A stretch of 64,000 bases of DNA from Posidonia oceanica. Lineage: Eukaryota; Streptophyta; Magnoliopsida; Alismatales; Posidoniaceae. The notes beneath the pieces were generated by a model, which was not told the origin of the DNA, did not search any database, and saw only the letters and a list, made by a program, of their open reading frames with translations. The stretch lies in the NCBI GenBank assembly GCA_037176725.1, contig JAZBRS010000049.1, forward strand, positions 39,486,001 to 39,550,000, in the 5' to 3' direction. Position numbers and translations under genes: made by a program. Below are positions 3,388 to 51,910 of the stretch, in pieces (positions within the stretch are counted from its first letter, which is position 1; each line of letters begins with the position of its first letter).

Positions 3388-4290
3388 GTCATGCTCCGGG
3401 GTTCTTTTTGCTGGTTAATTTTGCTTTTTTTGTCCGGTTGTGCTCCAGGGTTGCTTTGTTTGTCCGGTCATGCTCCGGGGTTTGCTTTATTTGTCCGGTT
3501 GTGCTCCGGGGTTTGCTTTATTTGTCCGATTGTGCTCCGGGACTTGCTTTATTTGTCCGGTTGTGCTCCGGGGCTCTTTCCTTGGTAGGTTTGCTTTGTT
3601 ATCCCGGTTGTGCTCCGGGAATCTATGCTTTGGTATCCCGATTATGCTCCGGGGATCTTTGCTTTGGTGTCCCGGTTATGCTCCGGGGTTTGCTTTATTT
3701 GTCCGGTTGTGCTCCGGGGCTCTTTTCTTGGTAGGTTTGCTTTGTTATCCCGGTTGTGCTCCGGAGATCTATGCTTTGGTATCCCGGTTATGCTCCGGGG
3801 ATCTTTGCTTTGGTGTCCCGATTATGCTCCGGGGTTTGCTTTATTTGTCCGGTTGTGCTCCGGGGCTCTTTCCTTGGTAGGTTTGCTTTGTTATCCAGGT
3901 TGTGCTCCGGGGATCTATGCTTTGGTATCCGGGTTATGCTCCGGGGATCTTTGCTTTGGTGTCTCAGTTATACTCCGAGGATAACTGGGGATCTTTGCTT
4001 TGGTGTCCCGGTTATGCCTCGGGGATCTTTGCTTTGGTGTCCTGGTTATGCTCCGGGGATCTTTGCTTTGGTAGGTTTGCTTTGTTATCCCGGTTGTGCT
4101 CTGGGGATCTTTGCTTGATTGATTTGCTTTGTTGTCCTGGTTGTGCTCCGGGGATCTTTTTGATTGATTTGCTTTGTTGTCTCGGTTGTGCTTCGGGGAT
4201 GCTTTGTTTGTCCGGTCATGCTCCGGGGCTCTTTCTGATTGATTTGCTTTGTTGTCCTGGTTGTGCTCCGGGGATCTTTCTGATTTATCG
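3388..4290. repeat. 31/34-bp tandem array in the 3' region of X-A
   Basis: The core is GTGCTCCGGGG (or ATGCTCCGGGG), followed by TTTGCTTTATTTGTCCGGTT in 31-bp units or ATCTTTGCTTTGGTGTCCCGGTT in 34-bp units. The two unit types are interspersed with longer variants that include TTGGTAGG. The units contain no stop in any plus-strand frame, so overlapping SGCAPG-, FVRLCSG- and ICPVVLRG-type frames result; these are repeat artefacts. A homologous array lies at 52153-53010. Confidence 0.9.
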
Positions 4291-4315
4291 AGGGGATTAC
4301 CAAAGGGAGGCGGAA

Positions 4316-4935
4316 ATAAAAACCTGACATGCCTAGGGGAAGACCAAGGGAGTCGAAACAATAACATGACATGCCTAGGGGAAGACCAGAGGGAGTCGAA
4401 AATAAAAACTTGACGTGCCTAAGGGTAGACCCGAGGGAGTCGAAAATAAAAACTTAACGTGCCTAGGGGAAGACCCAAGGGAGTCGAAAATAACAACTTG
4501 ACGTGCCTAGGGGAAGACCCAAGGGAGTCGAAAATAAAAACTTGACATGCCTAAGGGAACTCCTGAGGGAGTCGAGAATAAAAACTTGACGTGCCTGGGG
4601 GAAGACCCGAGGGAGTCGAAAATAAAAACTTGACGTGCCTAGAGGAAGACCTGAGGGAGTCGAAAATAACAGCATGACGTGCCTAGGGGAAGACCCGAGG
4701 GAGTCGAAAATAAAAACATGACGTGCCTAGGGGAAGACCCGAGGGAGTCGAAAATAAAAACATGACGTGCCTAGGGGAAGACCCGAGAGAGTCGAAAATA
4801 AAAACTTGACGTGCCTAGGGGAAGACCCGAGGGAGTCGAAAATAAAAACTTGATATACCTAGGGGAAGACTCGAGGGAGTCGAAAATAAGAGCTTGACGT
4901 GCCTAGGGGAAGACCCAAGGGAGTCGAAAAGGATA
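4316..4935. repeat. 44-bp tandem array, about 14 units, in X-A
   Basis: The unit reads CTTGACGTGCCTAGGGGAAG, then ACCCGAGGGAGTCG, then AAAATAAAAA. It repeats head to tail with few mismatches. X-B carries the same unit at 53026-53995 in about 22 copies. Plant Tat/Ogre elements are known to have hypervariable tandem repeats in the region between pol and the 3' LTR, and this fits that pattern. Confidence 0.92.
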
Positions 4936-5010: not shown

Positions 5011-5100
5011 TCGTTGGACGCTTGATTGTTGGCGTTCAATGTTGGATGCTTCAAACATCGTGGCTAACGTTGGACGGCATTACGGCCGCGTATAACGTTG
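5011..5100. promoter_or_regulatory. AACGTT palindrome array upstream of PMD1 (X-A)
   Basis: This stretch holds GTTGGACGC, GGCGTTCAATGTTGGATGC, GTGGCTAACGTTGGACGGC and CCGCGTATAACGTTGCG in close succession. They are variants of the half-site GCGNNNAACGTT on either strand. The array sits 100-190 bp upstream of the PMD1 TATA box and is conserved in X-B (54073-54165). A role as a cis-element is inferred from its repeated placement. Confidence 0.6.
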
Positions 5101-5197
5101 CGAGACAGGCTGCTGTCTTTCCTGTTTGGGCACCACCGTTTTGGCTGTAAATTCCCAATTTTCTTTGGGTTTCCATTCTGATGAAAGCTCCACGGCC

Positions 5198-5205
5198 TAT
5201 ATTAG
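5198..5205 (+). promoter_or_regulatory. TATA box of PMD1 (X-A)
   Basis: TATATTAG lies 96 bp upstream of the PMD1 ATG and is identical in X-B (54258-54265). PMD2 and PMD3 have TATA boxes at similar distances, about 100 bp from their ATGs. Sequence pattern only; transcription has not been observed. Confidence 0.55.
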
Positions 5206-5293
5206 ATCTCCTCTTGGCTTGAATATTGTAATTCAAACATTTATCTCCCTTCCCTTATTGATTTTTGGCTAGCTAGGGCTTGTGCTTCTCCTC

Positions 5294-6644
5294 ATGGATT
5301 TGAGTGATATCCTACGTCATGCTTTTCATGTGGCCGTCTTCTCCTCTCCTTCTGACATGGTGCAGCTCCGGCTGGAGGCCATACCCAACCATTTGACGAA
5401 CCTGTTGGTGCATGAGAAGGTACTCCCCATTTTCATCTTGTTTGTATACTCCCATTCTCGTACTTTTGCTGATTTTTCTTTACTTTATAGCCCCTATCTT
5501 CTGCCAACAATGATCGGGACTCGAAAGCCTATCAGTTGGACTAGGTTCAACAATTCCGTTCTTGGGCTTTGAAGAAGTACCGAGAACGCTTGGAGGAGGC
5601 TGGTCTCTGTTAGGCCCTTCGCCAGCTGCGGCAGCCTGTTGACTGGAAGGCGCTCTTTGGCCTCTGCGGGCTGTGGAACCCTTTGACTCATACGTTCTTT
5701 TCTTCTTCTGGGGAATTGACCATCCTCTTGGAGGAGGTGAGCGCCCTCCTAGGTATTCGACATGCCGACCCATCCATTTACTGCAGGGATGCCTACCTTC
5801 TGCCAATCGGGGTGGTAGGTTCGTTCTCTCTCTTAAAGCGCATCTTCGGCTCCGTTGTTGTGCCGGAAGACCTGGTGTTGGATGGCTGCATCAAACTCTC
5901 CTCTTTGTGGAAATTTTTCTGGAAACAGCGCGACAGCATCCGCTCTGAGGCATCTTGTTTGGAATGCGTCTTCATCCTGATCAGGGGACTGTGCTCTTCC
6001 CAAATGAAGCTCTGACTATTAGTGCCTACCATGCCGAGCTCATGTGCATCTGCGTGCGCAACCCGGAGAAGTGTTTGAGTCAGTCTGTTTTGGCTTTTAC
6101 CATCCGGGGCTTATCCAGTGCCTGCCTCGGGGGGCCATTCTTTGGCTCACCGTTCCTAGTTCTGTGCTGGCTGGAGGAGCACTTTCTTCTGCTTGCTTTT
6201 GATGCTAGCCTTCCCTTGGAGGAGCTCATCCGTCGCCTATGCGCCTGCGAGGTCAAATCCCAGATGGATTCCCTCAGTCCCCCCTTGTCTTTCAGGACAG
6301 TATCTGACTTGGAGTATTTCTTGACGCTGATTGGGGCGACCGAGTTTGTGAGGTACAACCCTTGGCGCTGCTTCTCAATGCTGGGTACTCCTTGGGCTAT
6401 ACCTCCCTTGCAGTGCTTCTCTGATATGATTCTCCCGCGCTTGAGGGACACTCCTGGGGACATGATCCAGGTTTTCTATCAGGCTGGTACTTGGGACGGG
6501 AAGGGGCGAAATCGAGTCCTTTCTGCATGGGAGAACTCGAATGCGGACCGTGAAGCCATTTCCCTTGCAACTTATGATGCTTGGTACGAGGGCGTGCGTC
6601 CTAAATTGTTCATTGAATTTCCTTCAAAAAGACAGAAGATGTAG
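5294..6644 (+). pseudogene. PMD1: plant mobile domain gene, X-A copy, broken
   Basis: There are two exons. Exon 1 (5294-5419, 42 codons, MDLSDILRHAF...) is followed by a GT-AG intron with a T-rich acceptor, and exon 2 is 5491-6644. The PMD core (WNPLTHTF, GELTILLEEVSALLGI) lies at residues ~104-131. The C-terminus is basic (FPSKRQKM). PMD proteins are plant proteins found both as host genes (MAIN/MAIL family) and inside transposable elements; their biochemical activity is not established. Breaks: a stop at 5542 (Trp in X-B), a stop at 5611 shared with X-B, and a 1-bp loss near 5990 that shifts the frame. Allowing for that base, exon 2 is 385 codons and the intron is phase 0. The gene is antisense to pol of its element. 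I chose the ATG at 5294 because it lies downstream of the TATA box and matches X-B. Confidence 0.85.
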
Positions 6645-6667
6645 TTAGAAATGTATCACTTATCGTC

Positions 6668-6673
6668 AATAAA
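6668..6673 (+). terminator. Poly(A) signal AATAAA of PMD1 (X-A)
   Basis: AATAAA starts 24 bp after the PMD1 stop and is retained in X-B at 55728-55733, also 24 bp after the stop. Its position fits 3' end formation of a plus-strand transcript that is independent of the retroelement. Confidence 0.5.
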
Positions 6674-6754
6674 ATTTATCTCGTCTCTTTGGTCTTTTTC
6701 GAATGAATCTGTATGAGAATATCAGAATTCAGAATACTTCCATGAACTTAAAGC

Positions 6755-6905
6755 GTTGAACACCCAACATGGAGCATCCAACGTTATACGCTGGAAACCC
6801 AGCGGCTAACGTTTTAACTCGCAAAACGTTGAACGCTAGCATTCACACGTATAACATCTTTTCTTCCCGAGGCGTTGGACGCTAGGATTCACGTGTACAA
6901 CGTTA
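6755..6905. promoter_or_regulatory. AACGTT palindrome array upstream of PMD2 (X-A)
   Basis: Successive variants are GCGTTGAACACC, GCATCCAACGTTATACGC, AGCGGCTAACGTTTT, AAAACGTTGAACGCTAGC, ACGTATAACATC, GGCGTTGGACGCTAGG and ACGTGTACAACGTT. The last copy ends just before the PMD2 TATA box at 6911. X-B has the matching array at 55788-55927, including a full GCGNNNAACGTTNNNCGC at 55796-55813. Confidence 0.6.
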
Positions 6906-6910
6906 AAATG

Positions 6911-6917
6911 TATAAAA
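6911..6917 (+). promoter_or_regulatory. TATA box of PMD2 (X-A)
   Basis: TATAAAA lies 105 bp upstream of the PMD2 ATG, directly after the motif array. The same box occurs in X-B at 55933-55939, also 105 bp from its ATG. Confidence 0.65.
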
Positions 6918-7015
6918 CCCTCGTCCTATGCCATCGGCAGCCATCTGATTTATTCCTCCTTTCTTCTCTGACGACAGTGGCTACTCCGGCGAGCTTCCTC
7001 TTCATTCCGGCGAGC

Positions 7016-10000
7016 ATGGAGCGGTGCATCTCCCAGTTCTACACGAGGGCGGCGAAGCGGGCAAGAATCGGGCCTTCCCCCTTCGGTGAGGCAGCGGTGG
7101 AAGCGGCGGCTGGGGCCGCTGCTGCGTGGGGGACGGCGGCGGGGGAAGCGGGAAGCACCGGCGAAGGCGTAGCAGGCGGCGGCATGGCTATGGCGACGGT
7201 TCCGGCGGCTGCTGGGGTGGTTCCGCCGACTCTAGTGCCTGGGCCGGCGGCTCTGGTGCCTGGGCCGACTGCTGCGGTGGTCGTGGAGGTCGAGGTGGGC
7301 ATGGCAGGTGTGGTGGAGGCCGGTGGTGTCGCGGCGACGCCCGGGGCAACGTCCGGTGGTGATCCCGTGGCTGCGGGGGCGGAGACGGGGGCTGCCGTGG
7401 GTGGTTCTGCGGAGACTGAGGTGGTGGTTGGCGATGACGCCGTGGAGGCGGAGGTGACGGCCAGTGAGGCCACCGTGGGGGAGAGCTCCGGTTCTGGGGA
7501 GGCCGGAGAGATGATGGCGGAGGCGGTCCCCAGTGCGAGCACTTCCTTCAGCTTGGGGGATTCCAAGGAGACGGTCTCATAGGCGAGACCTGAGGTCAGC
7601 CCAGACGAGGTGGGGCCCTCGGAGGTGCCCGAGGTGAGGCCAGTCGACCCCCTCCTTGCGCAGTTCGGCGAGGACGACAGCTGGTGGCGAAACATGGTGG
7701 ACTTCGTCCAATGGGAGGCGGAGGGCGTCGCGAGCGATCCCTTGGACTACTGGTGGGAGCAGATTCCCAGAGACGAGGTGCAGGCGTCAGGACCGCGTAG
7801 GTACGCGTCTCGATCAGAGTACGCCACTGCCACACTAGCTTCCAGGGGCAGGTATACATTTTTCATTCTTTTCTTCTTATTTTGTTCAATTATTTCATTC
7901 GAACTGATAATTTTCCTGCCTGCTTGTAGAGTCGAGCACCGGCTGTGACCCACTGCTACTGGGGTCAGGTCCTCCGGTCCTACGCCTTGTTGGCTTCTTT
8001 CCAGCAGGAGCGTCTGCATCGGATGGGATTTGTGCATTTCTTGTCCATCTCGGACTTTCCCCTCCATCCGATGTTTTTGGAGGCGGTTGCAGAGCAGTGG
8101 AGCTTCCGGACGAGCTCGATCGTTACTCGGGCAGGCGAGTTTGTCCTCTCTCTTGAGGACATGGCACGGTTGACTGGTCTCCGGGTTACGGGCTGACCAG
8201 TGACAGGGAGAGTGTGCCCGAGCTACTCGGTTTTGGCGCAGGAGCTCGTGGGACGCCAGTTAGCCATGAGCGGGGAGCAGCTCGTGGTGATTACTTCCGC
8301 GGTCCACCGGGTGAGTGAGCTGGCGGAGACAGTCGACAGACCAGGTGTGGAGGCTGACTAACAGCTGCGGGCCTTCCTCTTAGTGTTGTTCGGGGAGGTG
8401 CTCTTCTCGCACTCTTCCTCGAAGCTCTCGGCGTGGTTTCTTCCCCTTCTGGTGGACTTGGAGTGTGTGGGAGAGTACGCCTGGGGTGCGGTGAGCTTGG
8501 CGCACCTGTACTCTACCCTTTTCTGCTTCACCGACGGCAGTTCTTGCCAGCTGAGCGGGAACCTGCCATTCCTTCAGTTAAATCTACATATTTAAGCTTG
8601 TATTGAATATTATATTCTTGCTAACAGCTTTCTTGTTTCGCGTGCAGATGTGGGCGTGGGACCACTTTGCCTTTCTGCGCCCTGCCCCTCCTCCGGTTCC
8701 TCCTACAGGTGTCCCCTTTCCCCGAGGACTATTTTGGGCTACTGCTGAGCAGGCCCTCGAGCCTACTGATGACAACCGCTATGTCGGTCGTTTACTTTTT
8801 GAGCTCCTTGTCCCGGCTTAGGTAACTTGCTTCTTTTAATTTCAGCTTCTGTTTATTTGTTTATGCTGCTTGCTGACATGTATTGCTCTTTTCAGGTGGT
8901 TTGGCATCCCTATGTTGAGGGAGAGCATGCAGACGTCCCCGAGATTGCCCGTGATTGGGCCATTTTCGACCAGGACGTATGGATCCACTGCTGGAACCAC
9001 TGCCACTTTCAGCAGATTAGCAGGGCTGTACGACAGCTAGGGTGCCGGCAGGCTCGGCCTTCACCACCTCCTCACCGAGTTTGGCGAGAGACACGTGGCA
9101 GGGGCAGCCGTGCTCGCCACTGGGTGGACGTCTACGGCCCACAGCTCCTGGACTGGGCCCGTCGTGGTTTCCCCGCTCCGACGGATGCTACAGAGGAGGA
9201 CGAGGTGGACTGGGCTGTGTGGATAGACTGGGAGTTTTCCTCTCTGATGATCTTCCATTGGTCCCACTTCCTTGGGCACGGGAACCTTCCTTTGGGGGAC
9301 ACAGACCCTGGGGAGGCGGTGGTTTTCCGTGCAGCCTTATTGGAGGAGGTTCAGTCTTCTCGTGTCCAGCTAGAGATAGCGGTGAGCTTTTGAATTTCAT
9401 TTGGTATATTGTTAATTCAATCTGGCTAACTGGCTTTCTTTCTTTTGCAGCTCAAGGCGGTCGATGAGCGGGCTCAGCAGGAGCACCATTTGACCCAGCA
9501 GCTCTCCACTCTGACCGGGGAGATTGACCGTCTACGGGCCTCTGCCTCTCAGGTATTTTTTCACAGGTAGCTTTTGTAGTTTGGTTATGAATTGTGACTT
9601 GACTTGAATCTTCCTTTTCAGCCTTCGACCAGCAGCGCTCCACCTCTGAACCGCTCAGAGGAGATCTCTCATCTCCAGGAGAAGGTAAATATGCTTTCAT
9701 TTTGTTTCTGCTTTTGAAATCCCCATAGTCTTGACGCCATTGCTTGCAGGTCGCTTATCTAGAGGGCGAGCTGAGGGAGCGGGCTGGTGACTTCATAGCC
9801 GCCAGCTCTGTCGGGAGGTTAGAGGAGCTAGAGGGGACAGTCGCTACCAGGAGTGCTCGGATCCAGGAGCTGGAGCAGCAGGTGGCTAATAGGGACACTG
9901 AGATTGCCCAGTCTCAGGCGGTATGATTTGATTTGATGCTTCTTTATGTCCTCTATGTCCTTGCTTGTATCTGACAATTGGATTGTTTCCCTCCTCAGAG

Positions 10001-10271
10001 CATGGCGGAGATTATCTCCCAGCTTGAGTTTGAGCTGGGGCACTACCGGAGGTTCGCCTTTACGACCGGTGTTAGGCTCGGGGTGTCTGTTCCTCCTGTG
10101 TCGAGCCGCCGGTCGGCTAGCCACCATTCTCGGTCCGTTTCCAGGACCCTATTAGGCGCTTTGGTTCGACAGTCGCCTCGTCCCCCTACTGCCCCTTCTC
10201 CGGCTCCCACTCCAGCTCCTGCTTTAGCTCCTGCTCCGGCTCCTGAGGGTGTGGGAGAGAGTGCTCCCTAG
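7016..10271 (+). pseudogene. PMD2: eight-exon PMD plus coiled-coil gene, X-A copy, broken
   Basis: Exons are 7016-7851, 7930-8577, 8648-8821, 8896-9381, 9451-9552, 9622-9684, 9750-9920 and 9999-10271. Exons 2-8 are all multiples of three (216, 58, 162, 34, 21, 57 and 91 codons). Exon 1 is one base short of 279 codons, from a G lost just before its end. The ~918-codon product has a start MERCISQFYTRAAKRAR, a long Ala/Gly/Val-rich N-terminus, and an acidic linker. A PMD-type core follows at ~336-363 (RAGEFVLSLEDMARLTGL), then a coiled coil from ~716 to ~860 and a Pro/Ala tail. Breaks: stops in exons 1, 2 and 3 (TAG as the last codon of exon 3), and a mutated donor after exon 2 (TT at 8578-8579 where X-B has GT). 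Exons are GC-rich and introns AT/T-rich. The gene is antisense to pol. Confidence 0.85.
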
Positions 10272-12238
10272 CTTTTGTACTTTAGGGGTATGCCCTGGTG
10301 ACTTTGTAGAACAATTGTGTTGACATCCCATTTTGACAGGCTTGATCAATTAGAATCTCCTGGTAGCTTTTGGATTCAAATTTAGGTCCAAACCTACACA
10401 ATCCTCTTCATTCTTCTCTCCCAAAACTAGCCCAAATTTAACCTAGAATTACACCCCTTTTCCAAGTCCAAAAACTACCCAAAAATCATAGGAAAACTCA
10501 CCATTCCCAACTTAGCAAACCTACCCAAGAACCCTCAAAATTTCAACCCAAAACCACTCCCAAAAACCCTAAAAAACCTAGGTAAAACTACCATTTTTCT
10601 ACACCTCAAAACCCTTCCAAAACCTTCCCAAAACTAGACCAAAATCCTAGGTCAAATACTAGAGAGCCTAGGCCACACACTCCTCAAATTTCACCTCTTT
10701 TCAAAACCTCTAACCCCTCCATTTACCCAAATTATCCTTTTCTCTCTCTTAGATTATTCTTTTCTCTCTCCTCTCTCTCTTGATTATCCTCCTTCTTTTC
10801 ACCTCCTTTTCTCCCTTCTTCTTGCCTGGCTGTGGGCCCCCCTTGTGCATCTATCTCTTCTGAATCTTATTTGTATTTTTACCTTATTTTTAGCATTTTC
10901 TTTGGCTTTCTAAAAAATGTTTTCTTTCAACTCTTCCTTTTCCTCTTTACTCCTCTATTTCTCCTTTTTCTTCTTCCTTTTCCTTTTCTTTTCCTTTCTC
11001 TTACTAAATCTCTAAAAAATCCTTAAAAACCTCTAAAACTCTAAAACAAAAGGAAAACAAATCAAAACTCTAAAAGAAATAATTAAAGACATTAAACAAA
11101 CCATTAAAAACCAAAAACCTAACTAAATCAAACTAAAATGGAAAAATAAGAATGCAACTTAAAAATGCAAAACAAACAAAAAGAAAATGCTGTAAAATCA
11201 AGGAAAAAACCAAAATGTAATCAAAACAAGTAAAAGTAAAAATCCTATTAAAAACAATCAAGAAAACAAATCCTAAAAGAAAGAAAACACTTAAGAAATG
11301 CAAGGGCTAGTAATTACGAAAGAAAAACTTAACTTAACAATTCTAAAAGAAACAATTCGAAAACTTAATTAAAAAATAAAAACAAACAATAAAAAATCTA
11401 AAAACACTTAATCAAAACTTAACAAGAAAACTTAACTAAAAAATATTAAAAGAACTTAACAAACAAAAATCAAGAACAAATCAAAGAAGACTCAAGAAAA
11501 AAAAGGGCTAAAATCAAAAATCTAAAACTCACCCTAATTGATCTAAAAACAAACTTTAAAAAATCCTAATTAACATCCCAAGTATTTAACAAGAAAAACA
11601 TAATTAAAAAACAACTTAAAAGACTTAACAAACATTTAAACAAACTCAAAAACAAATCAAAAACAAAGAAAACCCTAAAAACCCTAATCAAAACCAAATC
11701 CCTTTAAACCTAATTAACCAATTAAAAACAATCATTAAAAAACTTAATCAAAGTCCTAACCTTAAGCACAACTATTCTAAAAACCTTTTCTATTTTTATT
11801 TTATTTTTATTTTTATCTTTTTTATTTTCCTTCTTCTTTCCCCTCTTCTTTTCCCTTTCTTCCTTTCTTTCTATTTTTTCTTTTTTTTCCTTGGGCCCAG
11901 TCCGGCCCGTTCCCCTCCTTCCTTCTTCCTTTCTTTTTTTTTCTTTTTTTCCTTTCGCGTGAAGCCCAGCCTGCAACCTTCCTTCTTCCTCTTCTTCCCT
12001 CCTTCTTCTTCTTCTTCCTCTACAGTTCCTCCCGCTAGTCTCCCTTTCCTCTTCAAATTTCAATTCTCCTCTCCCTCCCGATCACCTCAGCCTCCAGCTC
12101 AGCTCTTCCTCTCTCGCGTCTCAGCAGGATCTCCAGGAGCATTCAATGCGCGTCGCCTCCGGCCGTCCTCATTGCTGACAGTTGCTGCTCCCGCCGGTGG
12201 ATTTTGAAATCCAGCGTGCTTCACTCCTCCTCCCCAGT

Positions 12239-12250
12239 TGATAAAACCCC
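12239..12250 (+). promoter_or_regulatory. TATA-like box of the outer Ogre-like LTR
   Basis: TGATAAAACCCC lies about 1.92 kb into the LTR. The nested LTR has TGATAAAGCC at the same offset (16549-16558), and the third LTR has GATATAAG at 24443-24450. A common offset after a pyrimidine-rich upstream tract suggests the LTR promoter; transcription start is not known. Confidence 0.45.
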
Positions 12251-13489
12251 CAGCATCCTCCTCCTTCATCGCCCTTTGGTCGTCCGAGAGAGAGAAAGCA
12301 TCTAGAGCCCAGAAGCTACCCCGATTCTCCCTCTCTTCCCACTGAAATTCTGCAGCTCTTCTTCCTCTTCCTTCCCGTCTGATCTAGAGCCCCAAACAGT
12401 CCTCAAACTTCTCCCAATTCCGTCCCCAAATCCACCCAAACAACCACCATTTCAGGCCTTCCTTCCATGCCCCGAACCACCTCTGAATTCACCCTCCATC
12501 ACCCTGAAAACCCAACAGAACCCAACACCCTCTCCTCTCAAAATTCCGAGCACCACAGACCCACAAATCCCTCCAAACTCCACCTAGCAACTCCCCAGAA
12601 TCTCACCTTCTAAACCCACCTGAGCTTCAGCTCTAACCCTCACCACAGACCGAATCCTTCACTACAAACACCTCTGCCCATTTCTTCCAGAAAATCACCC
12701 AGCGACCAAACTTCTTCTTCAGCCTCTTCCCAGCCCTCCTGAGCATCCAGAAACACTCACGAACCCTCCAGAAGCTCGCCGGCATCCTCCTCTCGATCCG
12801 GAGAGCAGCAAACACTCCTATCCACCTCTGGCTGCTTCTTGAGCACCCACTGAAGCCGAATCTTCCTCCCGGCCGTGAAGCTTCGCTCCGGACGTCTAGG
12901 AAACTCCAGAGTACTCCACTGATCCATTCCCAGCACTCCCGAGCCGACGACGAGCTCTGCAACAGCCGGACGATCTCCACCGGCGATCACTGAAGCACTA
13001 GACGTCGGGGGAACTCCTCAGCTGCGGAATCAGGTACCACTCTTCCCCTGTAGTTTAGTTTTTCTCCTCTCGTGCTTTTCCGCCTTTTAGTTTAGTGTTT
13101 CCTCCCCTCTTCCGCCGAGTCGTCGCCGCCGTTGTCTCGTCTTCTCTAGCGAGCTCCGCGACTGGAATCGTCGCTCCGACAGCAGAACTCGCATCCAGGG
13201 ATCGCCCGAGCTCCGCACCGACTCCAGGATTGCTCCGGTGGCTTCAGAATGCCACGACGACGCTCCGATCATCTTCCCTGCCTCCAAGCAGGTCTGCAGA
13301 GCTCCGTTCAGCTCTCCGGCTTGCTCCGGGCAGCTCCAAGCCGCGCCGACGCCTCCCAGATCTCCGTCAACCTCCGGCGAACGTCGCCGACCTCCCCGCG
13401 CATCCCCAGCAGCCCTTCTCCGGCGTCCATGGCCACTGGAAGCTTCTGCTACAGTGACCATGGCCGCTAGCTTTTCACTGTAGCATTAT

Positions 13490-14460
13490 TTTCTGTTAGC
13501 TAAGCTATTTTGTTACTAAATTGCATTTTCAGTCCCTGTTTTTACTTTATTGCGTTCTGGTCCTGCCTCTGTTTAAGATTCATTTAATTCCGAATTTAAA
13601 TCATATGAAATTGTATGAAAAACTTAAAAAACTGTCTAATTACATGTTGGTCCTTCTGCTGTGTTTTCTTTTAATGTTTATTTTAGTTCAAGCCCTCTGG
13701 TTTTCCATTTTTGCATGTTAGTCATTTAATCAATAATTTGATTTAATGCTTATATTTTACTTTAGTAAATTGTATTTTTAAACCCTGTTGTTTTCCTCAT
13801 TTGCACTTTAGTCCTCTGTCCTGTTAACTCATGCATTTATTTTTCAATTTTTCTTACTGCATTGCATTATTTCCCCCATACTTTCTGATTTTTGCATATA
13901 AGTCCTTCATTAATGCACAGCATACATTTAAATGCATATTTTGCTTATAAAATTGCACTTTAGACCTTGCATGTTTTAAAATTGCATATAGGTCCTCTGC
14001 ATGCCTATAAAAGTCATTTAAATGCATATTTTTGCTTATAAAATTGCATTTTAGACCCTGAATATTTAAAAATTGCATATAGGTCCTTTGTTTGCATTCT
14101 CAGACCATTTAAGACTACTGTTTTGCTTACAAAATTGCATTCCAACCCCTGCATGTTTCAAAATTGCATGTTAATCCCCCATATGGTTTCAAAACTTATC
14201 CTAATGCATGTTTACCTTGTAAAATTGCATTTTGAACCCTGTATTTTGCAAAATTGCACTTAAACCCTCCAGTTTTCAAAAACCTTGCACAAAAGTTCCC
14301 TAACTTTTCATAATCTTAGAATTTAGACACCCACTTTTTGAAAAATTGCACATAAGTTCCCAAGTTTTCTGAAAAATCATCCTTAGGTCTTTTCTTGCAT
14401 TTCTGCATGCATTGCACTCATGCATCTTTGCATTTAGCATTCCTGCACACACTTAAGCAT
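13490..14460. repeat. GCATTTTAGACCC-type imperfect repeats in the outer Ogre-like LTR
   Basis: This stretch is built from recurring phrases: AAAATTGCATTTTAGACCCTGCATGTTT, alternating with AAAATTGCATATAGGTCCT and ATTTAAATGCATATTTTGCTT (shown here split; each phrase varies). Corresponding stretches are 17870-18800 in the nested LTR and 25900-26870 in the third. The spacing is irregular, at roughly 35-80 bp. No coding capacity. Confidence 0.7.
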
Positions 14461-17400
14461 TCCTAGCTCCCATTTGCATGGAAGGACCTATTGTGTACAT
14501 CCCTAGGACCTCCTGTACACCTAGATCCATTCTTCTCCTTTGTTCTGGCCCCTCTGCCTTGAAGTTGAGATATCTTCTGATCTGGCCGTTGGATCTTCTC
14601 AACCAAGCTACCTGGACGACCCCGGTTGTTGACACCCCATCTTGACAGGCTTGGACCATTTGGGACCTTCTGGTGATTGCTGGATCTAAACCTAGGTCAA
14701 AACAACCCCCAACCCTCCTCATCTCACCCTTCAAAACAAGCCTAACTTGACCTAAGCCTACACCCTCTTCCCAAGCCCAAAACCTGCCCAAAAACCATAG
14801 GAAAACCCATCAACCCCTACTTAGCAAACCTACCCAATCACTTAAAAACTTTCAGCCCAAAACCATTCCCAAAAACTCTAGAAAACTTAGGTGAAACCAC
14901 CCTTTTTCTACACCTCAAAACCCCTCCAAAACTTGCTCAAAACCAGACCAAAGCCCTAGAACCAACACTAGAAACCCTAGGTTACACACTCCCCAATTTT
15001 CACCCCATTTCAAAACCTTTAAGCCTTCCTTTTACCTAAATTATCCTTTTCACTCTCTTGGATTATTCTTTTCTCTCTCCTCTCTCTCTCCTGATTATCC
15101 TCCCTCTTTTCATCCCCTTCTCTCTCTTTTTCTTGCCTGGCTATGGGCCCCCTTTGTGCTTCTATCTCTTCTCTATCTTATTTCTATTTTTACCTTATTT
15201 TTAGCATTTTCCCTGACTTTTAAAAAATTGTTTTCCCCCAACTCATCTCTTTCCCCTTTATTCCTCCTTTTTCCCTTTTCTTCTTCCTTCTCTTTTCCTT
15301 TTTCCTTCTTTTGCTAAAATCCATAAAAAACCCTTAAAAATCTCTAAAACTCTAAAACAAAAGGGAAACAAACCAGAACCCTAAGAAAAATAATTAAAAA
15401 TACTAAACAAACAATTAAGAACCTAAACCCAACTAAATCTAGTTAAAATGGAAAACCAAGGATGCAAGCTAAAAAATGCAAAACAAACCAAAAGAAAATG
15501 CTGTAAAATCAAGGAAAAAACTAAAATATAATCAAAACCGACCAAAAGTGAAAACCCTATCAATATAATCTAAAAACAAACCCTAAGAAGAAGGAAAACA
15601 ATTAAAAAACACTAAGACAAATAATTAATGAAAAAAAACTTAACTTAACAAACCTAAGAAGAACAACTTAAGAACTTAATTAAAAAGAAAATGAGAAACA
15701 AAGTAAAAAGATTTAAAAACACTTAATCCATCAAGAAGAAACTTAACCAAAAAACATCAAGAAAACTTAACAAATAAAAATCAAAAGTGTAATCCAAAAG
15801 AGGACTTAAGAAGAATCCTAAAAGACTAAAATCAAAACCCAAAACTCACTCTAATTAATCTAAAAATAAATCTTAAAAAATCCTAATTAACATCCCAAGT
15901 ACTTAACAAGAAAAGCATAATTAAAAAATAACTTAAAAGGCTTAACAAACACTTAATCAAAATGGAAAACAAATTAAAAACAAAGAAAACCCTTAAAACC
16001 CTAATCAAACCCAAAACCCCTCTAAAATCATAATTAATCAACTAAAAACAGTCATTAAAAATTTAATCAAGATCCTGACTCACAACATGATCATTCTAAT
16101 ATTTTTACTTATTTTTATTTTATTTTTACTTAATTTATTTCTCCTCTTTTTCTCCTCTCTTTCTCTCTTTCTTCCTATTCTTTTTTTTTCTTCTTCTTTT
16201 CTGCTGGGCCCAATCCAGCCCGTCCACCCCTTCCTTCTTTCTTTTTTTTTCTTTTTTATTTTATGGTTCGCGGCCCGCCCCGCTTCCCTCCTTCCTCTTC
16301 CTTCTTCTTCCTCAGCTTCTTCCTTCTCCTCCCGCGAAGCTACACAGGACTCCCACTTCTTTTTCAAATTCAAGCTTTCCCCCTCCATCCAATCCAGCAA
16401 CAGCTCGCCGCTCCTCTCTCTTCTCTCAGCACCTTTTCCGGGAGGCAGTTACTGCCTGTCGTCTCGCCGGCATCCTCTCATCTCAGCTGCAGTACTCGCG
16501 CCAGAGGGATTCAAAAATCTTCAGCGTGCCCGGCAGCTTCGTGCTCCCTGATAAAGCCTCAGCATTCCATCTCCTCCAATGCCTTTTGGCCATCCGAGAG
16601 AGAGAGCTGAAATCCAGAGAGAATTCCCAAGCAAACTCCTCCTTCTTCTCCCTCTGAATTCAGCAGCCTTCCCCCTTCTTTTTCCTCAGAAACCAAGCCC
16701 CTTCCAAGCCTCCAATTCTCTTCCATTTCATCCCCCAAATCCACCCAGAGTCCCAGCATTCCTCCTCCACCATTTCCCGGCTTTTCCACTCCTGAAAACA
16801 CCCCCAGTCCACCGAATTCCCATCACAGAAGCTAACTGCAACCCAACACCACCTCTCCTGAAATTGCCTTCACCACAGACCTCCACTCCGTCCCAAACCT
16901 TCCCCAGTCACTCGCCTGAACTCCACCTCTCCAAGCCACCCAGCCTTCAGCCTTCAGCCTTCTCCCCCCTTACAGGCCGAACCTTCCACCACAAACAGTT
17001 ACCTCCCTCTCTGACCAGAAAATCAACCAATCTGCAAATCCACTCTACGGCCTCCCGAAACCCAATTCAACTGCCCAGAATCCTTCACCAGACCTCCAGC
17101 AATCTTCCAGAGGGTCCTATCCGGCCTGAGGAGCAGCGGACACTCCCCCCAGTCTCCGGCTGCCCCAGCAAACCCAAAATCTGCAAAACCACCTGCTGGT
17201 CTTCGAAGCTCGCGTCCAACCATCCAGGAAGCTCCGGAAGGTCGCTCTGAGGCGATTCCAATCTCCCCGAGCCGCCGACGCCCCCTCCTCTCACCGGACG
17301 AGCTCCACCGGCGACCTCTGAAACCACCTGCGTCGGGAGGACTTCCCAGCCACGGAAACAGGTAAAATCTTATCCCTTTAGCTTAATCTTCCTTCCTTCT

Positions 17401-19539
17401 TGCTTTTCCGCCCCTTAGACTAGGGTTCCCTTCGCTCCTGTGCCGGGTCAACGCCGGTCAGAGTCGTCTTCTCCGGCGAGCCTCACCGTGCGTCCCTCCG
17501 CTCCGGTCAGCAGAATGCCGTTCCAGCAGCACCCTCCGGTCCGCACGAGTCTCAGGAACACGCTCCGGCCTTCAGATCGCCGCGTCGTTGCGCCGATCGC
17601 CCGGGGTGCACTTCTGAAGCTCTGCAGACCTCCGGTGGCTTCTCCGGCTTGCTCTAGCCCGCGTCGAGCTCCGCCGAGCGTCGTCCGACCTCCGTCAGGA
17701 CCTGGAGACGCCTCCCCGCCGGTCTGCGCAGCCCCAGCATCCCTGTGCCGGCGTTCATGGACGCTGGCAGCTTGCTGCTACAGTGTCCATGGTCGTCGGC
17801 CATGCACTGTTCATTTATTTTTCTTTTATCTAAGTTTTTCGTTAAATATTGCATTTCTGGTCTGAGTTCTTGTTATTTTGCATTCCAGTCCTTTATTTGA
17901 TTTAATCTGCTGATTTCTAAACTAAAACTATATTAAATTGCATGAAATGTCTGTAGTTCTCCTTATTTGCTTTATGGTCCTTTTACTGTGCTTTCCCTCA
18001 GTAATAAGTTAGACTTTGGCCCTCCAGCTTTTGATTTTTGCACTTAGGTCCTGCAGTAGCTTAATTTAATTTAATGCATGAATTTTGCCATATAAAATTG
18101 CATTCCAGGTCCCTTTTGTTTTCTGCTTTTGCATTCTAGTCCTATGTCCTGTAGAACTTAGGTTTTATTTTTCATTTTTGCTTGTTGCATTGCATTTTTC
18201 CCCCTCTGTTTTCTGATTTTTGCATATAGGTCCTTTCTAATGCACAGTAATCATTTTAATGCATATTTAGCTTATTAAATTGCATTTTTGACCTTGCATA
18301 TTTTAAAATTTGCATGTCAGTCCTCTGTCTGCCCACTTAATGCATATTTTGCTTCAAAAATTGCATTTTTGACCCTGCATGTTTGAAAAATTGCACATAG
18401 GTCCTCGGCATGCTTATAAAAATCATTTAAATGCATATTTTGCTTCAAAAATTGCATTTTAGCCCCACATGTTTGAAAAATTGCATGTAGGTCCCCATTT
18501 GCATTCCCAGACTACTTAGGACCCTGTTTTTCTGGAAAAATTGCATTTTAGACCCTAATGATTTCAAAATTGCATTTCAACTCGCCACATGATTTCAAAA
18601 CTTGTCCTGATGCATACCCCTTTTGGAAAATTGCATTTTAAACCCTGCGCTTTGCAAAATTGCATTCAGGCCCTTCTTTTTTTCAAAATCCTTGCATGAA
18701 GGTCCCAAACTTTTCAAAACTTTTGCATTTAGACCACCATCTTTTCAAAATTGCATTTGAACCCCCAATTTTTTGAAAAATCCCTCCTGAGTCTTTTCTT
18801 GCTTTCTGCATGCATTTGCATTCATGCATTCTAGCTTTTTGCATCCTCTGCACACACTTAAAGCTTCTTTAGCTCCCATTTACATGGGAGGACCTGTTTG
18901 CACACCCTAGGACCTCCTGAACACTTAGATCTATTCTTCTCCCCTGTTCTGGCCTCTCTGCCTTGAAGCTGTGATATCTTCCAATCCGGCCGTTGGATCT
19001 TCTCAAACAAGCTACCCAGACGACCTCGGCGGAGCGCTCTTCAGCATGGACCAAGCAGATTTCAGATCAGGCTCCAGATTTTCCAGGTATGTCCTCCTGA
19101 ACCCCTGCACAGCATTCATTTGCACATCATTTGCATGCATGCATCGTTTTCGCTTTTTGCTTCTTCGAGCATGTAGAATAGGACCCCCTCTTCTTATCTG
19201 TCAACTCCGTTCCTCGCTTCGCGTATCCCCAAGTGTTTTGTGTTGTGTTTCCCTTGGATTCACCACTTACTGCGGCTTTCTTCCCCCTTTTCCACGATCC
19301 GATCGCACCGCGAGCTTTGGGCAGCGTGCGAGACACATCGTGGAGCGGTTTAGTGGGAAACAATTGCAAAACGGTGGTAATTCCTCCACTTGCTTGTTCT
19401 CCTCAGTGTAGGTCTTCACACCTACTCTGCGTGGTCCTTGAACAGTGCCTGTTCTCACACACGTACTGTTGGCCTCCCCTTTCACTTTTCTCATCCTCTC
19501 TCTTTGCATTTGCATCTGCATGGTTTTGCCGAGGTTTTA

Positions 19540-19810
19540 TTCCGTCTTTTGGCACCGTTTCGCGTGCCCGCTTTGCTTTTGGCACTGTTTTGCGTGCCCG
19601 TTTCGCTTTTGGCACCGTTTTGCGTGCCTGCTCTGTCTTTGGCACCGTTTTGCATGCCCGCTCTGTTTTTTGGCACCGTTTTGCGTGCCCGCTCCGCTTT
19701 TGGCACCGTTTCGCGTGCCTGCTCTGCTTTTGGCACCGTTTTGCGTGCCCGCTTTGTCTTTGGCGCCGTTTTGCGTGCCGCTCTCGTTTCTTGCATTGTT
19801 TCGCGTGTTT
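19540..19810. repeat. 30-bp tandem repeats in the nested Ogre-like LTR
   Basis: The unit is TTGCGTGCCCGCTTTG followed by CTTTTGGCACCGTT, repeated about nine times. Homologous arrays are 20990-21400 (outer LTR, about 13 units) and 27600-27870 (third LTR, more diverged). Because 30 is a multiple of three, the arrays show long frames rich in FGTVLRAR or its equivalents; these are not genes. Confidence 0.85.
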
Positions 19811-20078
19811 TACGCTGTTTTCTCTTGCATGTCGCTTGCATTGCTTGGTTTTACCGTTGTTTTGCTTTTTCGCTTGCATTTGCATATAGGGCAGTGATGC
19901 TTACTGCCTGGAGTTCTCACGAGCCCGGTTTCGCCTGGTTCGGAACACAGACAGCGCTGCTGAGCACTTAGACTGCACGTTTACTTTCCTTGCACTGCAT
20001 TCCACCACTTAGAGCACACCTATGAGCATTCATTCAGGCATTCATTGGTATTTAGGCATTCAGATCTGCATTTCCCTG

Positions 20079-20161
20079 CGTATGCGAGCGTAAGCCTAGA
20101 AAGACCGATTCTCGGGCGTGTCGGGGGTGCCTAACACCTTCCCCGCGCGTAACAGGAGTCC
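20079..20161 (+). promoter_or_regulatory. Strongly conserved ~80-bp block near the 3' end of the Ogre-like LTR
   Basis: The block runs from GCGTATGCGAGCGTAAGCC through GATTCTCGGGCGTGTCGGGG to GCCTAACACCTTCCCCGCGC and GTAACAGGAGTCC. It is nearly identical at 21672-21752 and 28129-28213, while flanking LTR sequence diverges more. A GTGCCTAACACCTTCC(C)-type block is familiar from Ogre-like LTRs. Its function is unknown; an R/U5 RNA structure or a transcript-end signal is possible. Confidence 0.6.
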
Positions 20162-20989
20162 TTGCCCAGTCTTTTGGCCCGCAATGACCATATCGCCCTT
20201 ATCCTAGGCATGAGTCATCTCGTTTGCATGTATTTGCATTTGTTTTCCTTTGCATTGCTTTGCTTTGCATTTCTTGCTTGGTTTTGCGTGTTAATTCACG
20301 CATTTTCCCCGATTTTCCTTGTCTCCCGATAATAGACATGGTGGCGACTCTGATTTGTCTTATCTTTTTCTTTTCTTCCTTTTTAAGTGTTTTCGAGTTG
20401 AGCCCTCCTCCTCGGACCATCGCCGTTAATAGTAAGCCTGATTTCTGATTGGGATTACTACACCGGCAGAGCGCTCTTCAGCATAGACCAAGCAGTTCTC
20501 AGATCAAGCTTCAGATTTCCAAGGTAAGTCCTCTTGTATCCTTACACAGCATTCATCTGCACATCATTTGCATTGCATGCATTGTTCTCGCTTTCTGATT
20601 TCTCGAGCATGTAGATTAGGACTTCCTCTTCTTATCTATCAACTCTGTCTCTTCTTTTCGCGTACTCCCAGTGTTTTGTGTTGCGTTTCCCCTGGATTCA
20701 CCACTAATTGCGACTTTCTTCCCCCCTTTTCCACGATCCGATCGCATCACGAGCTTTTGGCAGCGTGCGAGACACATCGTGGGACACTTTGGTGGGAAAC
20801 AGTCACAAAACAGTGGTAATCCCTCCATTTGCTTCTCTTCCCCTTTGTAGGTCTTCACACCTACTTTGCGCGGTCCTTAAACAGTGCCTGTTCTCACACA
20901 CGCAATGTTTGTCTCCCCTTTCGCTTCTCCTGTCCTTTCTCTTTGCATTTGCATTTGCATGGCTTTGTCGATGTTTTATTTCGCCTGCT

Positions 20990-21400
20990 TTGGCACCGTT
21001 TTGCGTGCCCGCTTTCTTTTTGGCACCGTTTTGCGTGCCCACTTCGTCTTTGGCACCGTTTCGCGTGCCTGCTTTGCTTTTGGCACCACTTTGCATGCCC
21101 GCTTTGCTTTTGGCACCGTTTTGTGTGCCCGCTTCGTCTTTGGCACCGTTTTACGTGCCCGCTTCGCTTTCAGCACTGTTTTGCGTGTTGGCTTTGTTTT
21201 CTTGCACCGTTTCTCGTGTCGCTTTGTTTTCCTGCATCGTTTCGCGTGCCGGCTTTGTTTTCTTGCACCGTTTTGCGTGTCGCTTTGTTTTCTTACACCA
21301 TTTTGCGTGTTGCTCTATCTTTTGCGCCGTTTCGCGTGCCGGCTTTGTTTTCTTGCACCGTTTCACGTGCTGCTTCCATCTCTCGCATCATTTTGCGTGT
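20990..21400. repeat. 30-bp tandem repeats in the outer Ogre-like LTR
   Basis: About thirteen units of the same 30-bp repeat as at 19540-19810. The distal units degrade to TTGCGTGTCGCTTTG and TTTTCTTGCACCGT forms. The copy number differs among the three LTRs. Confidence 0.85.
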
Positions 21401-22113
21401 CTTACACCGTTTTCTCTTGCATGTCGCCTGCATTGCCTGGTTTTACTGCCGTTTTGCTTTTCCGTTTGCATTTGCATATAGGGCAGTGATGCTTACTGCC
21501 TGGAGTTCCCACGAGGCAGGTTTCGACCGGTTCGGAACACAGACATCGTTGCTGAGCACTTAGACAGCACGTTTATTTTCCTGCATTGCATCCCACCACT
21601 TAGAGCACACCTTTGAGCATTCATTCAGGCATTCATTGGCATTTAGGCATTCAAACCTGCATTTTCCTGCATATGCGAGCGTAAGCCTAGAAAGACTGAT
21701 TCTCGGGCGTGTCGGGGGTGCCTAACACCTTCCCCGCACATAACAGGAGTCCCTGCCCAGTCTTTTGGCCCGCAATGACCATATTGCCCTTATCCTAGGC
21801 ATGAGTCATTTCATTAGCATTCATTTGCATTTGTTTTCTTTTGCATTGCTTTGCATTGCATCCTTTGCTCGGTTTTGCGTGTTAACTCGCGCATTTCCCT
21901 CGGTTCTCCTTGTCTCCCGATAATAGACACGGTGGTGACTCTGAATTGTCGTATCTTCTTCTTTTCTTATCTTTTCTCCTCTATTTTAAGTGTTTTCGAG
22001 TTGAGCCCTCCTCCTCAGACATAGCCGCTTATAGTGAGCCTTATTCCGATCGGTGCACGCGAGCTTCTGGCAGTGTGCATGGACGATCTGAACACCGGGA
22101 TTACTACAAATTG

Positions 22114-28500: not shown

Positions 28501-28516
28501 GATCGGGATCGCTACA
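22560..28516 (+). mobile_element. 5' LTR of an Ogre-like element, plus strand
   Basis: It starts TGTTGACACCCC and ends GGGATCGCTACA, 5957 bp, and is immediately followed by a PBS. It is homologous along its length to both solo LTRs: TATA-like GATATAAG at 24443-24450, GCATTTT-type repeats at 25900-26870, 30-bp repeats at 27600-27870, and the conserved block at 28129-28213. Very long LTRs and this PBS type are features of Ogre-like members of the Tat lineage. The 3' LTR is missing; the element ends in gag at 31234. Confidence 0.9.
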
Positions 28517-28517
28517 G

Positions 28518-28535
28518 TGGCGACTCTGCTGGGGA
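28518..28535 (+). promoter_or_regulatory. Primer binding site of the Ogre-like element
   Basis: TGGCGACTCTGCTGGGGA begins one base after the LTR end. Ogre-type elements are reported to have a tRNA-Arg PBS of this TGGCGACTC form. It fixes the orientation and the LTR boundary. Confidence 0.85.
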
Positions 28536-32519: not shown

Positions 32520-32625
32520 TAAAACGTAAGATGTAGAAGATCAGGTATCCAACATCCTTCCGTTGATCGTTATACGCTTCAGATGGCGTGTCTAACGTTG
32601 GACGCTGATATTTGCTCGTTTAACA
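32520..32625. promoter_or_regulatory. AACGTT motif array downstream of PMD3 (X-A)
   Basis: It contains AAAACGTAAGATG, TATCCAACATCC, GATCGTTATACGCTTC, and GCGTGTCTAACGTTGGACGC at 32586-32605, plus a weaker TTTAACACCCG. X-B has the equivalent at 61648-61784 with additional copies. It lies at the convergent side of PMD3 and pol. Confidence 0.5.
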
Positions 32626-35800: not shown

Positions 35801-36046
35801 ACTCGGTGGCCTATATTTCCAGTATCTCCTCATCAGGGAAGTCTGTTCGGACTGGTTGATAATCTTCAATTGGGAGTTCTGCCAGGTGATCTACAATGGC
35901 CTACCCCTTGACTGCCTTCTGGGACACATATTGCAAGTCGAATTCAGTGAGGAGGAGTTGCCACCTTGCCAAACTTCCAGAGAGGGCTGGCTTCTCGAAC
36001 ATATATTTGATTGGGTCCATTTTGGCAATGTAACAGACTTTATGGG

Positions 36047-42506: not shown

Positions 42507-42552
42507 CCTCAGTATACAGTGTATAACGTTGGACGCAAGATGTCAGGCGTTC
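42507..42552. promoter_or_regulatory. AACGTT motif pair just upstream of X-A gag
   Basis: AATACGCCTCAG, then GTATAACGTTGGACGC (42521-42536), then GGCGTTCAACGTTCCC. It is ~60-80 bp before the gag start on the minus strand. Confidence 0.5.
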
Positions 42553-44037: not shown

Positions 44038-44070
44038 GGTTACTTACCTTGCACGGGAGCACTTTTAGCT

Positions 44071-51879: not shown

Positions 51880-51910
<31 letters not shown>

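Follow-up and report, generated by a model that had tools for sequence, protein, structure and literature searches.

Why does a plant retrotransposon carry several PMD genes on the strand opposite to its pol, each with its own promoter and introns, and do these genes belong to the element at all? The question is raised by a stretch of 64,000 nucleotides from Posidonia oceanica (contig JAZBRS010000049.1, positions 39,486,001 to 39,550,000; hereafter the window), in which an element X is present as X-A and X-B. PMD (plant mobile domain) proteins, still poorly understood, are widespread in angiosperms, both in retrotransposons and as host silencing factors. As the initial annotation of this locus had proposed, PMD1, PMD2 and PMD3 of element X each have several exons and a TATA box; they lie on the + strand between pol and the 3' LTR, in antisense orientation to pol. 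That annotation placed the whole trio within 5011-10271. This interval holds PMD1 and PMD2 of X-A, and the only whole PMD3 in the window is that of X-B (60118-61457, +; exons 60118-60225 and 60312-61457).

PMD1 of X-A occupies 5294-6644 on the + strand, with exons at 5294-5419 and 5491-6644 and an intron of 71 bp, and is followed by PMD2 at 7016-10271 (+), an eight-exon gene encoding a PMD domain, an Ala/Gly-rich N terminus and coiled-coil-like C-terminal exons. The X-B counterparts lie at 54353-55704 (PMD1, +) and 56038-59289 (PMD2, +; eight exons, introns of 65-78 bp). PMD3 of X-A is a remnant at 31235-32330 (+), homologous to X-B from position 60341 onwards; it lacks the promoter, exon 1 and the first part of exon 2, with other sequence at 22560-31234 in their place. 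The order of the genes is identical in X-A and X-B as claimed, with a third gene that is partial in X-A. The TATA box lies 95-96 bp before the ATG in PMD1 and 105 bp before it in both PMD2 and PMD3, in agreement with the distance of about 100 bp first given, and the AATAAA reported for PMD1 is present downstream of that gene. Every PMD copy inside the window carries stops and/or frameshifts; in PMD1 of X-A these are a frameshift and two in-frame stops, in PMD1 of X-B three in-frame stops. The donor of the second intron of X-A PMD2 is not GT.

The Pfam profile PF10536 matches PMD2 with an E value of 1.1e-41 and PMD3 with 1.6e-8 (34.6 bits, just under the gathering threshold of 34.9), and its match to PMD1 is weak (E 0.0027, 17.4 bits). 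PMD1 is placed in the family mainly through its paralogy to PMD3, which extends over the full length (27% identity, E 3e-32), with an intron at the same place and in the same phase. Protein searches with PMD1 and PMD2 gave no match at E 1e-3, a PDB sequence search with PMD2 gave no useful match, and the predicted structure of PMD1 was unusable (pLDDT 35). The pieces tried had no relatives in protein, viral and prokaryote collections, from which plant reference sequences are absent.

As originally suggested, X belongs to the Tat lineage of Ty3/gypsy retrotransposons: domain-profile matches on the minus strand place an additional RNase H, the Tat hallmark, between RH and INT. These matches comprise a protease ORF in which two stretches score as protease (38595-41048, -), a reverse transcriptase in two open pieces (RVT_1; 36332-37018, -), an RNase H in open pieces (RT_RNaseH; 35904-36328, -), the additional RNase H (RVT_3, E 8e-15; 35146-35769, -) and an integrase in open pieces (34006-34914, -; rve match at 34525-34914). 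The 5' LTR of X-A is at 44092-45473 (-) and reads TGTAGATACC...CCATA, the end being ...CCACA in copy 4 of the genomic sample described below. Directly internal to it, at 44072-44088, is the primer-binding site TGGCGATCACGGTGGGA, which lies 3 bp inside the LTR. This site differs from the tRNA-Arg end by two mismatches in about 16 and may be of the tRNA-Arg type, the type of Ogre elements. Within Tat, X is most likely of the Ogre type. Its LTRs are about 1.4 kb long, and its large non-coding parts contain tandem arrays; those with 31-, 34- and 44-bp units lie at 3420-4930, in the interval from PMD1 to the X-A 3' end, and their X-B equivalents at 52153-53990 are cut by the LTR of an element Y at 52152. 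Neither copy is complete in the window: X-A has no 3' LTR there, and X-B is interrupted by element Y at 52152 and extends past the window edge.

Copies of X are numerous in the same genome, where at least 40 places, counting the window, scored 95-100% identity among 5427 first-look candidates. The sample consists of 14 PMD1-anchored copies, namely the ten best PMD1 matches after the window and four from the subsequent ones. PMD2 was found in 13 of these, and 11 have PMD3 at 80% or more of its length. All three genes occur in order in 10/14 copies, a figure that is not a frequency across all X copies since the sample was chosen by PMD1 match; in copy 8, one of these ten, the match is to the 3' part of PMD1 only. 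Where the integrase was reached (12/14), order and strand were identical in every copy (12/12). PMD2 is missing from copy 5 and PMD3 from copy 1, so within this sample the trio is usual but not invariable. Both ends were fetched for just two of the 14 copies. Copy 4 is a complete element: it has both LTRs and measures 24,139 bp between the two copies of its 5-bp target site duplication (GCGTG). The second also has both LTRs, with the duplication CTTGT. The PMD trio is inside both. The trio belongs to X, as had been claimed, and the LTR-bounded unit has transposed whole.

Between pairs of copies, dN/dS is 0.32 for PMD1, 0.33 for the PMD2 core, 0.43 for PMD2 exon 1 and 0.35 for PMD3, with 0.38 for the integrase, and off-frame readings of the PMD and integrase regions give 0.64-1.06. 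The comparison of X-A with X-B gives 0.35 for PMD1, 0.46 for PMD2 exon 1, 0.27 for PMD3 and 0.36 for the integrase; exons 2-7 of PMD2 give 0.44 there, against 0.56 and 0.74 off-frame, with one coiled-coil exon misframed in that comparison. In the correct frame, no frame-specific constraint is seen in the PMD2 coiled-coil exons (0.58, against 0.55 and 0.71 off-frame). Splice sites are intact at both ends in 11/11 copies of PMD1 and 9/9 of PMD3, and PMD2 has kept 75 of 77 donors and 71 of 77 acceptors. The TATA boxes are kept in 10/11, 11/11 and 9/9 copies of PMD1, PMD2 and PMD3, respectively. A check for stops, made on the copies that preceded the four later-fetched ones, found all of them broken (PMD1 11/11, PMD3 9/9). 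The frame-specific dN/dS of 0.32-0.43, together with the conserved splice sites, shows selection on the PMD proteins, and the reading as chance ORFs is rejected on these grounds.

An 18-bp palindrome, GCGTMYAACGTTRKACGC, with an ACGT core and often a 28-bp pitch, recurs in X: it precedes the TATA box of the LTR and that of each of the three PMD genes, and it also occurs in the leader. In X-A, arrays precede PMD1 (5032-5105, TATA at 5198) and PMD2 (6774-6910, TATA at 6911), three palindromes lie in the leader between LTR and gag (42519-43746; at 42519, 42947 and 43729), and others are in U3 of the 5' LTR (44999-45245), upstream of the minus-strand LTR TATA at 44910-44915. In X-B, arrays precede PMD1 (54092-54165, TATA at 54258), PMD2 (55796-55932, TATA at 55933) and PMD3 (59761-59909, mostly in 28-bp steps, TATA at 60013). 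The interval between PMD3 and INT holds a further array in X-A (32560-32605) and in X-B (61643-61753); the latter is followed by TATATT near 61791 and by no recognised gene, and so counts against a promoter-operator model of the palindromes. The initial annotation had missed these shared arrays.

The window contains 22 palindrome sites (up to 4 mismatches), all of them in X, against 0.88 in shuffled sequence and at most 2 in any of 25 shuffles, and the palindrome ranks first among 14,376 complex 12-mers when second copies and simple repeats are masked. With X-A and X-B counted together, 12/18 within-cluster steps are of exactly 28 bp. In the complete copy, all 20 sites are non-coding (LTRs, three PMD promoters, PMD3-INT spacer and leader), with none in its coding intervals or flanks; 13,463 bp of non-element flanks from five copies likewise contain none. 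LTR arrays are present in 9/9 LTRs. In a test framed after the map had been seen, 10/15 sites (p 2e-9) and 5/10 clusters (p 2e-4) fell within 350-bp promoter intervals. The sites are not ordinary tandem-repeat remains, a reading rejected on the often exact pitch and the nearly random spacers: eight 28-bp-spaced spacers have a mean identity of 3.4/10, against 2.5 for random 10-mers, and the palindromes one of 11.0/18. The sites may have begun as a repeat that later came under selection.

Comparison of the copies shows the palindromes of the PMD promoters to be constrained, as far as a footprint test can tell that counts related copies as data, treats columns as exchangeable and, except in the four-copy test, takes the palindrome positions from X-B, itself one of the rows. 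Non-CpG diversity is 0.037 in the palindromes and 0.100 in the spacers (p 1e-4), and the difference is found with A/T-only columns (p 0.003), C/G-only columns (p 0.0004) and transversions (p 1e-4). The four later-fetched copies give p 0.021 for the non-CpG footprint and a non-significant p 0.33 over all columns. The LTR arrays vary about as much as the sequence around them (0.049 vs 0.047), and in the X-A/X-B pair taken by itself the palindromes do not exceed the flanks in conservation (176/197 vs 974/1081). CpG retention in that pair is 17/28 in palindromes and 23/48 outside them, and CpG columns of palindromes and spacers show no clear difference (p 0.14).

The occurrence of a common palindrome at the promoters, that of the LTR included, suggests that X runs its own control circuit. 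We consider it somewhat probable that X is a giant Ogre-type Tat element with two transcription programmes under common palindrome control. The LTR would drive gag-pol, and on the opposite strand three small promoters would express the three PMD proteins as an accessory module, whose antisense orientation would leave the PMD introns in the genomic RNA and so let them survive every round of transposition. Since four promoters and the leader have the palindrome in common, joint control by one dimeric DNA-binding factor is possible, and X itself would most likely supply this factor, or aid its recruitment, via its PMD proteins, so that its promoters would be held open or tuned against host silencing. 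The palindrome is probably a shared operator recognised by an element-encoded factor, and we infer both promoter use and a binding-site role for the palindromes. Action of the PMD proteins through the palindromes, with an anti-silencing outcome, is put forward tentatively. A fuller form is offered with slightly more reserve: the palindromes in the LTR, in the leader and in front of the PMD genes would be recognised by the PMDs themselves, singly or as a heteromer of PMD2 and the PMD1/PMD3 pair, and X would in this way be kept expressible against silencing. Against such a role, the PMD domain is not known to bind DNA. Counter-silencing by PMD proteins made by transposable elements has been proposed earlier (PMC8616336). 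Two cases, counted as analogy, favour the proposed explanation: of the 26 genes whose expression is lowered in every main, mail1 and pp7l mutant studied, 25 carry the DOWN promoter motif (PMC7156037, PMC9899485), and VANC anti-silencers bind short motifs that form tandem repeats within their own elements (PMC5735166).

The palindromes could instead be host transcription factor sites which X exploits for all its promoters, with the PMDs acting elsewhere, on chromatin or in the pre-integration complex. The position upstream of TATA boxes, the ACGT core and the constraint in the PMD promoters all fit this reading, and no protein was linked to the sites in this analysis; the 13,463 bp of site-free flanks weigh little against it, as they say nothing about host promoters. 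We hold it to be a plausible alternative, at less than even likelihood. Hairpins in RNA or single-strand DNA, serving packaging, dimerisation or replication, are an unlikely explanation. The palindromes are inverted repeats, most of them within the presumed genomic RNA, and four of seven folded arrays reach z <= -2.0 against shuffles, but the other three are weaker (z -0.45, -0.23 and -1.54), and sites in U3 and upstream of antisense TATA boxes would not be expected.

For the genes themselves, it has to be considered that the antisense transcripts are the product, pairing with genomic RNA to feed or blunt siRNA silencing, with coding incidental. The antisense arrangement, the 175 phased-siRNA loci at tea PMD genes (PMC10673657) and the dsRNA idea of Vicient and Casacuberta (PMC7264820) speak for such a role; the frame-specific dN/dS and conserved splice sites point to selection on protein and make it very unlikely. 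That a MULE or other PMD-bearing transposon was inserted long ago into X, with the trio as passenger, is extremely improbable. MULEs do carry PMD genes (PMC5418596), but three genes with integrase-like coding constraint are not what a passenger would show, and around the PMD block there are no terminal inverted repeats of at least 29 bp except the dispersed palindromes themselves. A nested MULE is rejected for want of such repeats, and the separate nested element that would have told against the initial annotation was not seen.

If a PMD-palindrome circuit of the proposed kind is real, the PMD would be a DNA-directed regulator, which would account both for the PMD genes of Gypsy elements and for the motif dependence of host MAIN/MAIL1. 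As X pairs three PMD genes with a candidate target at its own promoters, PMD function could be tested directly by a binding or reporter assay. X would also give a concrete reason why introns and promoters are kept in antisense Tat genes, and would be a case in which the sense and antisense programmes of one element are under a shared control tag.

Extra ORFs of Tat elements are reportedly treated chiefly by Steinbauerova et al. 2011. Earlier work has already described PMD genes in Ogre and antisense genes in Tat, so that the novelty first claimed for the locus was overstated; what is new here is the shared promoter palindrome. For a three-PMD antisense set with such a palindrome we found no description. 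VANC is not known to be a PMD protein. VANDAL elements and VANC resemble X in combining an element-encoded protein family with short motifs clustered in its own non-coding regions, and differ in being DNA transposons for which binding and demethylation have been shown (PMC5735166). Ogre, in which PMD is found in 57% of elements (PMC6317226), shares with X the additional RNase H between RH and INT, the very large size (up to about 24 kb), PMD-bearing extra ORFs and tandem repeats in a long non-coding part, and a further Ogre trait is an intron between the GAG-PROT and RT ORFs; X differs in having three PMD genes, all antisense and intron-bearing, with promoters that share a palindrome. Gypsy retrotransposons encode PMD across angiosperms, and two PMD clades are exclusively Gypsy-encoded (PMC5418596); the PMD-A clades are reported as a domain phylogeny, and the part considered here does not mention several PMD genes per element, of which X has three. 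Retand, RIRE2 and Grande resemble X in having antisense genes and a long stretch from pol to the 3' LTR in which tandem arrays are frequent (PMC11963269, PMC7264820), the antisense gene23 of Grande having a nuclear product and its own promoter (PMC7264820). The antisense ORFs of Retand mostly encode Transposase_28 (PMC11963269), whereas the antisense products of X are PMD proteins, and the three of them gave no Transposase_28 match at E up to 1. Retand internal regions measure 7.4-12.9 kb and its LTRs 315-1194 bp (PMC11963269), compared with 24.1 kb and about 1.4 kb in X.

The genes PMD1, PMD2 and PMD3 of X, a Tat-lineage Ty3/gypsy retrotransposon most likely of the Ogre type, lie in the order PMD3, PMD2, PMD1 from the integrase to the 3' LTR, all on the strand opposite pol and all reading towards it. 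The 2.96-Gb genome (80 contigs) was searched with PMD1, and the 10 best matches after the window (20 kb each) and four more (10 kb each) were retrieved (n = 14). The initial annotation had assigned the trio to the element itself, and this is confirmed by copy 4, a complete X of 24,139 bp bounded by a 5-bp duplication (GCGTG), which reads LTR, leader, gag, protease, RT-RNase H, integrase, PMD3, PMD2, PMD1, tandem arrays, LTR. Copy 2 likewise has two LTRs, a duplication (CTTGT) and all three PMD genes, with gag unmatched. The LTR pairs diverge by 0.028 (copy 4) and 0.040 (copy 2; K2P), corresponding to ages of ~1.1 and ~1.6 My at an assumed substitution rate of 1.3e-8. The trio is usual rather than constant: 10 of the 14 PMD1-anchored copies carry all three genes, including copy 8, in which the 5' part of PMD1 is unmatched. 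PMD2 is found in 13/14, being missing from copy 5, and PMD3, counted at 80% coverage or more, in 11/14, being absent from copy 1, while the X match stops before PMD3 in copy 3 and inside it in copy 13. A separate nested element with its own termini, the alternative home for the PMD block, is not what the terminal-repeat test revealed, since all inverted-repeat pairs of at least 29 bp sit in intergenic gaps and their common unit is an 18-bp palindrome, GCGTMYAACGTTRKACGC.

PMD1 and PMD3 each have two exons with an identically placed phase 0 intron, and they align over their full length (27% identity, E 3e-32); from their sequences, the pair is an old duplication. PMD2 is a distinct, longer gene of eight exons with introns of 65-78 bp. 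Membership in the PMD family is clear for PMD2 (Pfam, E 1.1e-41), while PMD3 scores slightly below the Pfam gathering score and PMD1 matches weakly (E 0.0027). The range 5011..10271, earlier given for the trio, holds PMD1 and PMD2 of X-A and does not include PMD3.

Comparison of copies points to former protein function. The dN/dS values are 0.32 for PMD1 (55 pairs), 0.35 for PMD3 (36 pairs), and 0.33 and 0.43 for the core and first exon of PMD2 (55 pairs each), close to the 0.38 of the integrase (45 pairs), compared with 0.64-1.06 when the same regions are read in either of their other frames. For the coiled-coil exons of PMD2 the value is 0.58 versus 0.55 and 0.71 off-frame, with no frame-specific constraint, and therefore no selection is claimed for them. 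Donor and acceptor sites are intact in 11/11 copies of PMD1 and 9/9 of PMD3, and in PMD2 75/77 donors and 71/77 acceptors are kept, as are the TATA boxes of PMD1 (10/11), PMD2 (11/11) and PMD3 (9/9). At least one stop interrupts all 11 PMD1 and all nine PMD3 copies checked; the stops vary in position from copy to copy, some being common to a few, and therefore the ancestral frames were open and decayed later. On this sequence evidence, the PMD genes, those coiled-coil exons excepted, were selected as proteins and have since decayed. X-A and X-B, the two copies in the window (5011-10330 versus 54001-59400), differ by 476 substitutions (393 transitions, 83 transversions), and C-to-T-type differences affect 10.9% of CG, 9.0% of CHG and 4.6% of CHH sites, as expected of methylated, silenced DNA.

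The palindrome is strongly over-represented. Its half, AACGTTRKACGC, has 57 matches at up to two mismatches (7.0 in 100 shuffles, largest 13), and the full palindrome has 22 sites at up to four mismatches (0.88 on average and at most 2 in 25 shuffles) and 33 at up to five (6.9 on average, at most 11), all 33 within X, which makes up 53% of the window. Among 14,376 complex 12-mers ranked over 31,981 bases, with second copies and simple repeats masked, AACGTTGGACGC comes first (19 places; mean 3.7, sd 1.9). Within clusters, 12 of 18 steps are exactly 28 bp, with a near-random 10-bp spacer between palindromes. Arrays precede the TATA boxes of PMD1, PMD2, PMD3 and the LTR, and others occupy the leader and the PMD3-integrase gap. 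The 20 sites of copy 4 (up to four mismatches) fall three in each LTR, two before PMD1, four before PMD2, three before PMD3, two in the PMD3-integrase gap and three in the leader. PMD1-3, the pol-gag interval, the tandem arrays and the flanks of this copy are free of sites, as are 13,463 bp of flanking non-element DNA taken from five copies. At 61643-61800 an array followed by a TATATT box resembles the PMD1 promoter, with no recognisable gene behind it, and may be what is left of a fourth antisense gene.

In a footprint test with label permutation (three PMD promoters, 13-15 copies including X-A and X-B), diversity in non-CpG columns was 0.037 in palindromes versus 0.100 in the spacers between them (p 1e-4), and 0.089 versus 0.119 over all columns (p 0.016). 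Four copies fetched once the positions were fixed gave p 0.021 for non-CpG columns and 0.33 for all columns. Base composition is rejected as the cause of the low diversity (A/T columns, p 0.003; C/G columns, p 0.0004; transversions, p 1e-4). Other results speak against constraint on the palindromes: CpG columns showed no clear palindrome/spacer difference, palindromes showed no excess conservation between X-A and X-B alone, and the LTR arrays, present in 9/9 LTRs, are conserved no better than their surroundings.

The antisense position would let the intron-bearing genes pass the RNA stage unspliced, as splicing polarity implies. The recurrence of one palindrome at all four promoters and in the leader suggests that a single regulator may serve both sense and antisense programmes through these putative sites. 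VANC proteins set a precedent, being encoded by an element and targeting short motifs that are repeated within its non-coding DNA (PMC5735166), and for the DOWN promoter motif of the main/mail1/pp7l work direct binding is left open by its authors (PMC7156037, PMC9899485). Counter-silencing by TE-made PMDs has already been proposed (PMC8616336), and in tea phased siRNAs are made from PMD genes (PMC10673657); X contributes a candidate target sequence. The arrangement is novel only in part: PMD ORFs are known in Ogre elements (PMC6317226), as are Gypsy-only PMD clades (PMC5418596) and antisense genes in the Tat elements Retand, RIRE2 and Grande (PMC11963269, PMC7264820). Among the matches listed in a search of mainly open-access literature, neither a trio of PMD genes within a single element nor a palindrome common to its promoters was described.

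Throughout the window, LTR retrotransposons are nested within one another. X-B occupies 64000 to 52153 in minus orientation and is cut at 52152 by the 5' LTR (50164-52152) of Y, a Ty3/gypsy element (RVT_1, RVP_2, Integrase_H2C2), this LTR matching 1-1983 at 93% identity. The Y integrase is broken at 45473, the start of the X-A 5' LTR, and a later portion of Y with an SH3-type integrase tail lies left of ~2880; X-A, in minus orientation, occupies the interval, having inserted within the Y integrase gene. X-A lacks its 3' LTR and its tandem arrays pass into Y at ~2880, where part of the Y integrase is gone as well.

The pol of X, on the minus strand, encodes in this order protease, RT, two RNase H domains, of which the second matches RVT_3 (E 8e-15), and integrase. 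Its protease ORF (38595-41048, minus) has two separate aspartyl protease matches in one 818-aa frame, the first of which seems to deviate from the canonical active-site motif; such a duplication of the protease would be unusual. Just past the X-A primer-binding site, at 44040-44050 (minus), lies a strong splice-donor-like sequence, AAGGTAAGTAA, which suggests that the leader is spliced. Long repeats and a foreign gag ORF interrupt X-A in two places, 10318-22108 and 22560-31234; the repeats are related, several kb long and contain 30-bp arrays, and the gag ORF (29801-31306), after the second repeat, ends where PMD3 of X-A resumes.
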